Assembly: GCA_020072585.1 (NCBI GenBank)
Contig: JAIQGL010000021.1
Span: 124,001-188,000, forward strand
Origin: Terriglobia bacterium
GTDB taxonomy: Bacteria; Acidobacteriota; Terriglobia; Terriglobales; Acidobacteriaceae
Length of the DNA stretch: 64,000 nt
Reading direction: 5' to 3'
Shown one piece after another: positions 53,848 through 56,832 of this stretch (position 1 is its first letter; the number at the start of each line of letters is the position of its first letter). Under the pieces are notes generated by a model. The model ran no database searches and was not told the origin of the DNA. It worked only from the letters and a program-made list of their open reading frames with translations. The position numbers and the translations under genes were made by a program.

Positions 53848-54906
53848 ATGCCTGAAACCATGCTTGCCGTAGTGAAACCGGAGGCCGCTCCGGGAGCGGA
53901 CGTGCGCCAGATGCCCGTTCCACAAATTGGCCCGGACGATGTTCTGGTGAAAGTGAAGGTGGCATCAGTCTGCGGCACCGATCTGCACATATACAACTGG
54001 GACCAATGGGCGCAGAACCGCATCAAACCACCGCTGATTCCCGGCCATGAATTCTGCGGGCATGTGGTTGCCATCGGCAAGAACGTAACGGCAGTGAAGG
54101 AAGGCGATTTCGTATCCGCCGAGATGCATGTGGCGTGCGGCAAGTGTTACCAGTGCCGCACCGGCGAAGCCCATATTTGCCAGCATGTGAAGATCATCGG
54201 CGTGGACGCCAATGGCGCTTTTGCCGAGTTCGTGAAGATTCCGGAATCAAATATCTGGAAGATCGATCCCGGCATACCGGCCGATTACGCCAGCGTGCTT
54301 GATCCGCTGGGTAACGCCGTGCACACGGTGCTGGCCGGGGAGATCGCGGCCAAGACCGTGGCGGTGATCGGCTGCGGGCCGATTGGGTTGTTCTGTATTG
54401 CCGTGGCACGCGCCTGCGGAGCCAGTGAGGTTTTTGCCCTTGAGATCAACGAGCATCGGCGCAAGCTGGCAACAAAAATGAAAGCCGATCATGTGCTCAA
54501 TCCCGCTAAAGACAATGTCTATGAGCAGGTGATGAAAGCCACAGGCGAGACCGGTGTGGACGTGATCCTGGAAATGTCCGGCCATCCGGATGCGATCCGC
54601 CTGGGCTTCAAGATACTGCGGCTGGGCGGACGCGCATCATTGCTGGGGATTCCCTCCAAACCGATGGAACTCAACCTGGCGACCGACATCATTTTCAAAG
54701 GCGCGCAGGTCCAGGGCATCAACGGTCGCCTGATGTACAAGACCTGGTACCAGATGAACGCGCTGCTCAAAGCGGACAAACTGGATCTGGACCCGGTAAT
54801 CACCGACCGGATGCCGATGGCCGACTTCAGCAAAGGCATGGACCGGTTGCGTACGGGTGAGTCGAGTAAGATTTTGTTGTACCCGAATGGGGTTTTAAAG
54901 AGTTAG
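53848..54906 (+). CDS. tdh: L-threonine 3-dehydrogenase
   Basis: 352 residues of the zinc-dependent medium-chain dehydrogenase family. Catalytic zinc ligands are C42, H67 and E68 and the structural zinc is held by C97, C100, C103 and C111. The NAD motif is VAVIGCGPIGLFC. It oxidises threonine to 2-amino-3-ketobutyrate, which Kbl then cleaves to glycine and acetyl-CoA. The Kbl gene is downstream, but a DinB-fold gene and a repeat element lie between them. AGGA precedes the ATG. Confidence 0.95.
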   Translation: MPETMLAVVKPEAAPGADVRQMPVPQIGPDDVLVKVKVASVCGTDLHIYNWDQWAQNRIKPPLIPGHEFCGHVVAIGKNVTAVKEGDFVSAEMHVACGKCYQCRTGEAHICQHVKIIGVDANGAFAEFVKIPESNIWKIDPGIPADYASVLDPLGNAVHTVLAGEIAAKTVAVIGCGPIGLFCIAVARACGASEVFALEINEHRRKLATKMKADHVLNPAKDNVYEQVMKATGETGVDVILEMSGHPDAIRLGFKILRLGGRASLLGIPSKPMELNLATDIIFKGAQVQGINGRLMYKTWYQMNALLKADKLDLDPVITDRMPMADFSKGMDRLRTGESSKILLYPNGVLKS

Positions 54907-55013
54907 CCGCAGATGTGCGCGGATGGCCGCAGATCGAAAGGGCGGCTGCGAATTGCGCGAATGAACACGAATCCAGAAAGATATAGTCTGCGTTGATCTG
55001 CGTTATTGTCGGC
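54907..55013. repeat. Composite inverted-repeat element between tdh and dinB
   Basis: It starts on the base after the tdh stop. Outer left units CCGCAGATG, GCGCGGATG, CCGCAGATC (54907-54935) face outer right units whose complement reads ACGCAGATC, AACGCAGACT (54986-55005). Inside is a GCTGCGAAT, GCGCGAATG, ACACGAATCC block (54945-54973) that is nearly identical to the right arm at 17728-17758. No open frame is inside. Confidence 0.55.
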
Positions 55014-55039
55014 AAAAAGACCTTGTTAAGGAGTGAGAC

Positions 55040-55615
55040 ATGGCGACCACTACAACTCGGCCGCAGCCTTCCTACCTTGCCGACCAGATGAACGAACTCA
55101 GGCAGCAATTCCGATCCTGTTCGGCTGCTGCGCAAGCCCTGGTGGGTTCAGTGCCGGAAGCTGATTTAATGCGGAAACCGGTGAAGCAAGGTTGGTCGAT
55201 TGCCGATTGTATTGAGCACCTGACCGCAACCACGCGGCTTTATCTGCCGATCCTCGATGCGGCGCTCAAGAATGCACCGGCAGGCAGCGGCCCTTTCAAA
55301 ATGGACTGGCGTGGCCGCCTTCTCAAATGGATACTGGAGCCGCCATACCGTTCCCGCGTAAAAACCCTGCCCAGCCTCGAGCCCAAGGTTTCTGATGTAA
55401 AGCAGGTGCTGCCCGATTTCCTCGCCAGCCAAGACTTGCTGTTTGAAGCCATGAAGCCCTGGAATGACCGGGCCCTGGACAAAGTGGTCATCACCTCGCC
55501 CTTCAATAAGAGACTTCGCTATAACATTTATTCGTTGTTCAATGTGGTCGCCGCCCACCAGCGGCGCCACTTGTGGCAAGCGCAGCGCGTTAAAGACCAA
55601 ATCAAAGGAATGTAA
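55040..55615 (+). CDS. DinB-superfamily protein with a Kbl-like N-terminus
   Basis: 191 residues. From about residue 25 it is a DinB/YfiT-type four-helix bundle (WSIADCIEHLTATTRLYLP, with a late HQRRHLWQAQRVK), a fold that binds a metal through three His and works in thiol transfer or stress enzymes. Residues 1-23 are almost the same as those of the next gene, Kbl (18 of 23 identical), which is not part of the DinB fold. The gene splits the usual tdh-kbl pair. GGAG precedes the ATG and kbl starts two bases after the stop. Confidence 0.8.
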   Translation: MATTTTRPQPSYLADQMNELRQQFRSCSAAAQALVGSVPEADLMRKPVKQGWSIADCIEHLTATTRLYLPILDAALKNAPAGSGPFKMDWRGRLLKWILEPPYRSRVKTLPSLEPKVSDVKQVLPDFLASQDLLFEAMKPWNDRALDKVVITSPFNKRLRYNIYSLFNVVAAHQRRHLWQAQRVKDQIKGM

Positions 55616-55617
55616 TC

Positions 55618-56832
55618 ATGTCCACTCAAACCACCCGACCGCAGCTATCCTATCTCGCCGACCAGATGAACGAGCTCAAGCAGAAGGGCACGCACTTCAA
55701 GCTGCGCGTGCTGGAAGACGCGCAGGCGCCGGAGTGTACGGTTGACGGCAAGCACGTCATCAATCTGGCGTCGAACAATTATCTGGGGTTGACGACGCAT
55801 CCAAAGCTGCGCGAAGCGGCGGTGGCGGCGATCAAGAAATTCGGCGTGGGCTCGGGCGCGGTGCGTACGGTCAGCGGAACCATGACGATCCACATGGAGT
55901 TGGAAGAGAAGATCGCGCGCTTCAAGAACACTGAGGCTTGCGTGGTCTTTCAGTCAGGCTTTGCCGCCAATGCGGGCACGGTTTCGGCGATCCTGGGGAA
56001 AGACGATTTCATTATCTCCGACGAGCTGAATCATGCCAGCATCATTGATGGCGCGCGGCTTTCGCGGGCCAAGATCAAAGTCTTCCGCCACAAGGACACG
56101 GCGCATGCCGAGGAGCTGCTAAAGGAAGTTGCCGGCGAGCCGGGCCACAAGCTGATTATCACCGACGGCGTTTTCTCCATGGATGGAGACATTGGCCCGC
56201 TGCCCGCACTGTGCGATCTGGCGGAAAAATATGGTGCCATCATGATGGTGGATGACGCGCACTCTTCCGGCGTGCTCGGACGCAACGGCCGGGGGACCAT
56301 TGACCACCACAAAGTTCACGGCCGTGTGGATGTGCAGGTGGGAACGCTCTCAAAAGCGATCGGCGCGCTGGGCGGATACGTGTGTGGATCGAAAGACCTG
56401 ATCGACTTTCTCTACCACCGCGCACGGCCATTCCTGTTCTCTACTTCGCATCCACCGTCCGTGGCTGCGACGTGCATTGCCGCGTTTGATGTGCTGGAGC
56501 AGGAGCCGGAGCGCATGGACCAGCTCTGGGCCAATACCCGGTTCTTCAAGAAAGAGCTGGGACTGCTGGGCTTCAACATCGGCGGCATCAGTACCCCGGC
56601 CAGCGAGACGCCCATCACGCCGATTGTGATCGGCGAAGGACGGCTCACCATGGAGTTCAGCCGCGAGCTGTTCAATGAAGGCGTGTTCGTGCCTGGGATC
56701 GCATTTCCTACGGTCGCGGAAGGCAAGGCGCGCCTGCGCACCATCATGACGGCCACACACACGCAAGACCAGCTAACCAAGGCGCTGGAGGTGCTGAAGA
56801 AAGTGGGAACGAGGATGGGTATTATCAAGTAA
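55618..56832 (+). CDS. kbl: 2-amino-3-ketobutyrate CoA ligase (glycine C-acetyltransferase)
   Basis: 404 residues of the alpha-oxoamine synthase family. The PLP Lys is K246 (GTLSKAIGALGG), with D212 and H215 in VDDAHSSG and H139 (SDELNHAS) stacking on the ring. It cleaves aminoketobutyrate with CoA into glycine and acetyl-CoA, completing threonine breakdown with Tdh. The gene's first 23 codons are duplicated at the start of the preceding gene. It is two bases behind that gene, so the two are coupled. Confidence 0.94.
   Translation: MSTQTTRPQLSYLADQMNELKQKGTHFKLRVLEDAQAPECTVDGKHVINLASNNYLGLTTHPKLREAAVAAIKKFGVGSGAVRTVSGTMTIHMELEEKIARFKNTEACVVFQSGFAANAGTVSAILGKDDFIISDELNHASIIDGARLSRAKIKVFRHKDTAHAEELLKEVAGEPGHKLIITDGVFSMDGDIGPLPALCDLAEKYGAIMMVDDAHSSGVLGRNGRGTIDHHKVHGRVDVQVGTLSKAIGALGGYVCGSKDLIDFLYHRARPFLFSTSHPPSVAATCIAAFDVLEQEPERMDQLWANTRFFKKELGLLGFNIGGISTPASETPITPIVIGEGRLTMEFSRELFNEGVFVPGIAFPTVAEGKARLRTIMTATHTQDQLTKALEVLKKVGTRMGIIK

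Follow-up and report, generated by a model that had tools for sequence, protein, structure and literature searches.

In the assembly GCA_020072585.1 of a soil bacterium of the Terriglobia, tdh and kbl are separated by a gene of the DinB type whose product begins much as Kbl does, which raises the question of how two proteins encoded side by side came to share an N-terminus. The stretch analyzed, called the window here, comprises 64,000 nucleotides (contig JAIQGL010000021.1, positions 124,001 to 188,000), and positions are counted from its first letter. Our reading, to which we give a probability of about 0.75, is that dinB is a DinB/YfiT-fold body fused in frame at approximately kbl codon 22 within the tdh-kbl operon, that kbl was kept whole, and that recombination with DNA of a relative is the likeliest route. 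The features of the locus are as follows.

53848 to 54906, forward strand: tdh, an L-threonine 3-dehydrogenase-type zinc dehydrogenase (Pfam ADH_N and ADH_zinc_N), 95.7% identical to that of G106, a genome of the same genus
54907 to 55039, forward strand: former tdh-kbl intergenic region and kbl leader, now ahead of dinB (last 60 nt match the G106 kbl leader)
Within 54907 to 55039, forward strand: AAGGAG, 6 nt before the dinB ATG (from sequence)
55040 to 55615, forward strand: dinB, a chimeric DinB_2/YfiT-type gene of 191 aa (Pfam DinB_2; model pLDDT 94.6; best fold match YfiT 1rxq)
55040 to 55108, forward strand: kbl 5' coding segment, left copy of about 22-23 codons, with which dinB now begins (18/23 aa, 52/69 nt; shuffles)
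55109 to 55612, forward strand: native DinB body, joint at about residues 21-24 (alignment; His60, His173 and His177 invariant)
55600 to 55617, forward strand: dinB 3' end; AAAGGA lies 8 nt ahead of the kbl ATG, and the stop-to-ATG gap is 2 nt (from sequence)
55618 to 55686, forward strand: kbl 5' coding segment, right copy, with which the present kbl begins (alignment with the left copy; shuffles)
55618 to 56832, forward strand: kbl, annotated as 2-amino-3-ketobutyrate CoA ligase (Pfam Aminotran_1_2; matches solved KBL chains, e.g. 1fc4)

The ATG of dinB is at 55040 and that of kbl at 55618, and 55686 is the last base of kbl codon 23. The first-pass annotation of this DNA had reported 18 identities between DinB and Kbl over their first 23 residues and a close agreement of the bases, and both the likeness and its coordinates were confirmed. 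The first 69 nt are identical at 52 positions, agreement across 17 anchored codons is 42/51 nt, and none of 2000 pairs of dinucleotide-shuffled sequences reached the score of the local alignment of the first 75 nt; the likeness ends after about residue 23. When the candidate starts of open reading frames of at least 90 aa in the window (n = 346) were compared over their first 26 residues with BLOSUM62, dinB and kbl were the sole non-overlapping same-strand pair to score at or above the threshold of 45 (score 92). The base composition of dinB was not unusual (GC3 0.66 versus 0.64-0.76 in five neighbors), and predictions of promoters and terminators near the genes did not exceed those in shuffled sequences.

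The origin of the shared segment was sought on both sides. In the family, genus included, the Kbl N-terminus was of one kind in all 122 distinct loci ([YHF]L, six residues, [LMF][KR], two residues, GT[HY]F), and its RPQL/RSQL form was present in 50 of them. These loci derive from 124 kbl rows, two of which repeat a locus (G060 and G015), and kbl pieces without a start and weaker paralogues were left out. The Kbl-type segment was absent from all 134 other distinct DinB rows, gathered by searching two family sets (150 and 398 genomes), 399 genomes of the class and 77 loci of named genomes, many of these genomes giving no match at the cut-offs used; the window protein scored 118, the best other row (G015) 41, and the next 35. 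Twenty-two further DinB matches from these searches showed neither the segment nor an adjoining tdh or kbl. Its presence on 122 of 122 Kbl and on none of the other DinB rows shows that the segment, which contains MATTTTRPQPSYLADQMNELR in the window DinB, is Kbl's own and was put onto DinB. DinB relatives were thus rejected as bringers of the segment (0/134), and the counter-case named in the first-pass annotation, a DinB with the segment and no kbl beside it, did not occur among these rows. The nearest DinB, that of G060 (50% identical), has a TTG start directly at the tdh stop and the sequence MANGSQQLDEVKAQF, and the N-terminus of the G015 DinB is MSTPVTHAKISPQLAAIADEL. Although G015 is also a tdh-dinB-kbl locus, its Kbl start finds nothing above 32 in its own upstream DNA, and its DinB score of 41 is therefore taken as helix likeness. 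A second kbl 5' copy in the DNA up to 1500 nt upstream of kbl was found in the window alone among the 124 kbl rows (score 92, next 35). Other genes of the tdh-kbl slot were considered as bearers of a kbl start and rejected on the same 124 rows and scores.

The sequences ahead of the two genes bear on which part of kbl was doubled. The kbl leader of the dinB-free G106 is matched by the last 60 nt ahead of dinB (0/5000 shuffles as good) but not by the last 60 nt ahead of the window kbl (2841/5000 shuffles as good). The old kbl leader and approximately 22 kbl codons thus now begin dinB. Between the dinB and kbl leaders themselves, no likeness beyond chance was detected (771/5000 shuffles as good over 40 nt and 534/5000 over 30 nt). 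A duplication of the leader along with the start was rejected, since the likeness noticed by eye, AAAGACC..AAGGA, was the one matched by 771 of 5000 shuffles over 40 nt. Only coding sequence is doubled, not the leader. The earlier proposal that both genes had received the same translation start was correct for the start codon and 5' codons and did not extend to the leaders. Because these leaders are not alike, the site used by kbl is probably located in the tail of dinB, where AAAGGA in the last dinB codons is likely to be its new ribosome-binding site. With the kbl ATG placed 2 nt after the dinB stop, dinB and kbl are probably translationally coupled.

The product of dinB was examined by domain search and structure prediction. 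Pfam DinB_2 (PF12867) covers residues 23-181 (E 1.1e-11, 45.7 bits versus a cut-off of 24.8), and the neighbors were recognized as a zinc-type dehydrogenase (tdh) and an aminotransferase I/II family protein (kbl). An AlphaFold2 model based on 31 aligned sequences has a mean pLDDT of 94.6 and is predicted as one domain, with residues 1-11 in coil and helix 1 spanning residues 12-36. A Foldseek search with this predicted model gave YfiT (1rxq) as the first hit (E 1.1e-4, TM 0.60), consistent with a YfiT-type four-helix bundle; a sequence search of the PDB with DinB gave no match at E up to 1. H60, H173 and H177 are invariant in all 31 aligned sequences, and a metal-binding histidine triad is a trait of DinB_2 and the DinB/YfiT superfamily. 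The window DinB shares the fold and the three invariant histidines with proteins of this type (DinB_2, YfiT 1rxq, mycothiol S-transferase 8f5v) and probably works as an ordinary metal-binding DinB/YfiT-type enzyme; it is unlike them in that its 11-residue N-terminal tail and the first half of helix 1 derive from Kbl. At the joint, the N-terminal helix of Kbl (DQMNELKQ) resembles DinB helix 1 (QLxELxxQF), and helix 1 of the DinB relatives aligns there, with the Kbl-derived residues 12-23 in register with QLxELxxQF. The model predicts that Kbl residues 12-23 make the first half of DinB helix 1, and the joint would let the fusion form one continuous helix. The earlier statement that the DinB fold does not need the segment therefore has to be revised: with helix 1 modeled at residues 12-36 and the relatives aligning there, about half of the piece is structural, and the statement holds for the coil tail of residues 1-11 alone. 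As for the neighboring enzyme, the window Kbl, with tdh upstream, matches 1fc4 at E 7e-102 over residues 14-403; its best solved match is 7poa, named AONS/KBL, so that the assignment of its substrate from sequence is tentative.

The same genus was represented by nine genomes, eight of them with a kbl match. No dinB was found between tdh and kbl in any of the seven other same-genus loci with a kbl 5' end, all of which have tdh upstream; in six of these the tdh-kbl spacer is 55-254 nt, and the gap of G151, of the same genus, holds a gene with weak TPR similarity below the Pfam cut-offs. G106 has the same gene order (emrA-like, tetR, tdh, kbl, fbp), except that the peptidase gene lying between kbl and fbp in the window was not found there. 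Since all seven loci are without dinB, its gain in the window lineage is the simplest reading, in agreement with the earlier view of an insert at the kbl start. That view also took tdh and kbl to be normally adjacent, which is true within the genus but not across the family, where 36 of 122 distinct loci had a same-strand tdh within the 1500-1800 nt read upstream of kbl (loci near contig ends counted as misses). Among the DinB loci read, the arrangement tdh-dinB-kbl was seen elsewhere only in G060 and G015, which belong to two other genera of the same family. Both resemble the window in the DinB-type gene that separates tdh from kbl, with the G060 protein as the nearest relative, and differ from it in the DinB N-terminus and in a kbl with a separate spacer and leader.

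Phylogenetic trees were then compared for the two proteins. In a tree of 64 of 116 DinB rows (at least 31% identity and more than 120 aa; the G245 copy, which has an internal stop, came out as 3 residues and fell out), the window protein pairs with that of G060 (support 98/87). A single group of the three slot DinBs was not in the best tree and was not rejected (p-AU 0.133). In a kbl tree of 21 rows, hand-chosen from 124 and including the partial G151 and G153, the window kbl falls within its genus (97/99) and is nearest to that of G106 (84/67), the G060 kbl pairs with that of the dinB-free G074 (100/99), and forcing the window and G060 kbl together was rejected (p-AU 1.7e-5). Because dinB pairs with G060 and kbl with its own genus, the histories of dinB and kbl differ. 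The window and G060 dinB are mutual nearest relatives among the sequences compared and both occupy the tdh-kbl slot, a situation that either slot-to-slot transfer via common flanks or an old presence followed by many losses would yield.

The age of the doubling was estimated from synonymous sites. Over 17 codons, the left and right copies show 6 differences at 11.3 synonymous sites and 2 at 39.7 nonsynonymous sites (dS 0.92); over 22 codons, where the alignment of the two ends is less certain, the corresponding figures are 10.5 at 15.3 and 6.5 at 50.7 (dS 1.83); the dating signal thus comes from 17-22 codons, and 11 synonymous sites entail a large error. In the five same-genus genomes with a full kbl, dS to the window kbl was 0.81 (G106), 0.76 (G050), 1.07 (G150), 1.29 (G134) and 0.92 (G152); gene-body values for G151 and G153 (dN 0.24 and 0.63) were excluded, as they came from kbl pieces at contig ends compared without gaps. 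The copies thus seem at least as diverged as the kbl of separate species of the genus, and for this reason a recent duplication is unsupported. Either the event is about as old as the species splits, with the DinB N-terminus under selection, or the copies come from two lineages, and the second possibility is favored. The first 43 codons of the window kbl are closer to G050 than the rest of the gene is, which is a hint only (p = 0.029, uncorrected).

A plain tandem duplication, proposed in the first-pass annotation, is in this light merely one route, and the synonymous divergence of 0.92, similar to that between kbl of different species, gives no support to a recent event. In its fuller form, this route has dinB arriving close to the kbl start and the kbl 5' end being copied in situ through slippage or unequal crossing over, after which the copies, both translated, diverged while the DinB N-terminus was under selection; this shares the chimera with our explanation and differs from it in the route. 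Both copies are of the genus' own kbl type, as this route would have it. Moreover, six of the eight changes between the copies over 17 codons are synonymous (binomial P 0.002), which is expected if both were selected as protein, but the same excess arises if the copies evolved as kbl in different species. A dS of 0.92, as large as that to the nearest, insert-free genome (0.81 over the gene body), would also place the duplication at about the age of that split, with the large error of 11 sites. We consider duplication in situ possible but doubtful.

Recombination with DNA of a relative bearing dinB-kbl is, in our reading, the likeliest route, favored because one event suffices and the divergence of the copies is explained. 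The right end would have been anchored by homology in kbl and the left end joined illegitimately, so that a DinB/YfiT-fold gene body came to be joined in frame to about kbl codon 22. The chimera itself is shown by the comparisons or is their direct consequence. The inserted gene has taken over the leader, the ribosome-binding site and the start codon of kbl together with about 22 of its codons, and kbl stays whole through a second copy of its own 5' coding end, which begins 2 nt past the dinB stop. As the right copy belongs to the kbl type of the genus itself, unlike the kbl of G060 or G015, the donor must be an unseen member of the same genus; no dinB-bearing donor of this genus was found among the genomes compared. 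The route, whether kbl-anchored recombination with an illegitimate left joint or duplication in situ, is inferred.

An older origin, in which the chimera was ancestral in the genus and was lost elsewhere by recombination between the two 5' copies, seems improbable. Deletion between the repeats would yield exactly the tdh-leader-kbl arrangement of the relatives, the dS values are compatible with old age, and tdh-dinB-kbl is present in two other genera. However, the insert would have to have been lost at each of the seven other loci of the genus, and losses would also be needed among the dinB-free relatives of G060 (G074, for example), and the window kbl is nested in the genus, although its pairing with G106 itself has a support of only 84/67.

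The contents of the tdh-kbl gap vary among genera. The gap exceeds 300 nt in 14 of the 36 tdh-kbl loci (window included), and these wide gaps hold dinB in three cases, a protein of approximately 160 aa in five, a HicA-type gene in one and the G151 gene in one; in the remaining four, no same-strand gene that could be named was found. The HicA-type gene is in the gap of locus L270, and the gap of L037, from the window's own genus, has a gene with weak TPR similarity. The proteins of about 160 aa (L162, L182, L189, L206 and L219) share by eye a cysteine- and KPHPFP/KPHPLP-type N-terminus, and no Pfam match was obtained for the three of the five that were tested. A broader reading would treat the tdh-kbl gap of these bacteria as a landing site used repeatedly, with recombination through the flanking genes exchanging unrelated cargo; in the window, the Kbl leader peptide would set DinB translation, supply half of helix 1 and be kept by selection, perhaps matching the DinB level to Kbl or bringing both proteins together; we regard this as speculative and rather unlikely.

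Convergence, in which DinB helix 1 merely resembles the Kbl N-terminal helix by chance or through the fold, can draw on the QLxxLxxQF of relatives at this place, close to QMNELRQ, and on the score of 41 of the best other DinB row (G015), but it is hardly credible given that residues 1-15 match too, that the window scores 118, that the bases match (0/2000 shuffles) and that the dinB leader matches the G106 kbl leader. An assembly artefact, with kbl 5' reads duplicated at a misjoin, would fit an arrangement shown by one genome alone, and is highly implausible for copies that differ at 17 of 69 nt, at a site inside a contig of at least 188 kb, with both reading frames open and the chimera predicted as one high-confidence domain.

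Among known kinds of rearrangement, insertion with long target duplication was reportedly described from two Helicobacter pylori genomes by Nobusato, Uchiyama, Ohashi and Kobayashi (Gene, 2000). It is the nearest known kind to the fusion considered here. Such insertions were found by comparing H. pylori genomes and are often tied to restriction-modification genes (PMC1643837, PMC3031569, PMC4978471). As described there, a gene is present in one of two related genomes, flanked by a direct target duplication, and its neighbors are whole, which is also the situation in the window. The insert is absent at the corresponding site in seven of seven other same-genus loci with a kbl 5' end, and a direct repeat of about 66-69 bp of kbl 5' coding sequence flanks it, one copy of which codes for the front of the insert. 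Here, by contrast, the gene is a DinB gene and one duplicated target copy is part of the insert's own coding sequence. Homology-facilitated illegitimate recombination is defined in PMC3240628; compared with that definition, the mechanism here is an inferred one, no donor was found, and the likeness at the joint, between the native G060 dinB 5' end and kbl, is a weak 13/18 nt (113/2000 shuffles as good). No report of dinB beside tdh or kbl was found among the literature matches listed, as far as their accessible text goes. The locus offers a snapshot of a gene entering a metabolic operon without breaking the host gene while gaining its leader, start codon and N-terminal helix, and it resembles a natural helix graft with the fold preserved. 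It opens no new kind of system and is a small-scale gene fusion by insertion, and it draws attention to the tdh-kbl gap as a place of differing cargo between genera.

Several minor features were noted in the loci compared. The G245 DinB homologue (L047 and L280) has an internal TGA in the search alignment. Between dinB and kbl of the G060 locus (L005), there is a palindrome around TTGCATGCAA, the core of which is absent from the window. By eye, the tdh-kbl spacers of the genus (window positions 54907-55039; L032, L034 and L036) look as if built of repeats of the GCCGCAGAT, CGCGAAT and ATCTGCG types, and sites of the GCCGCRGAT type occur six times in the window, counting either strand.
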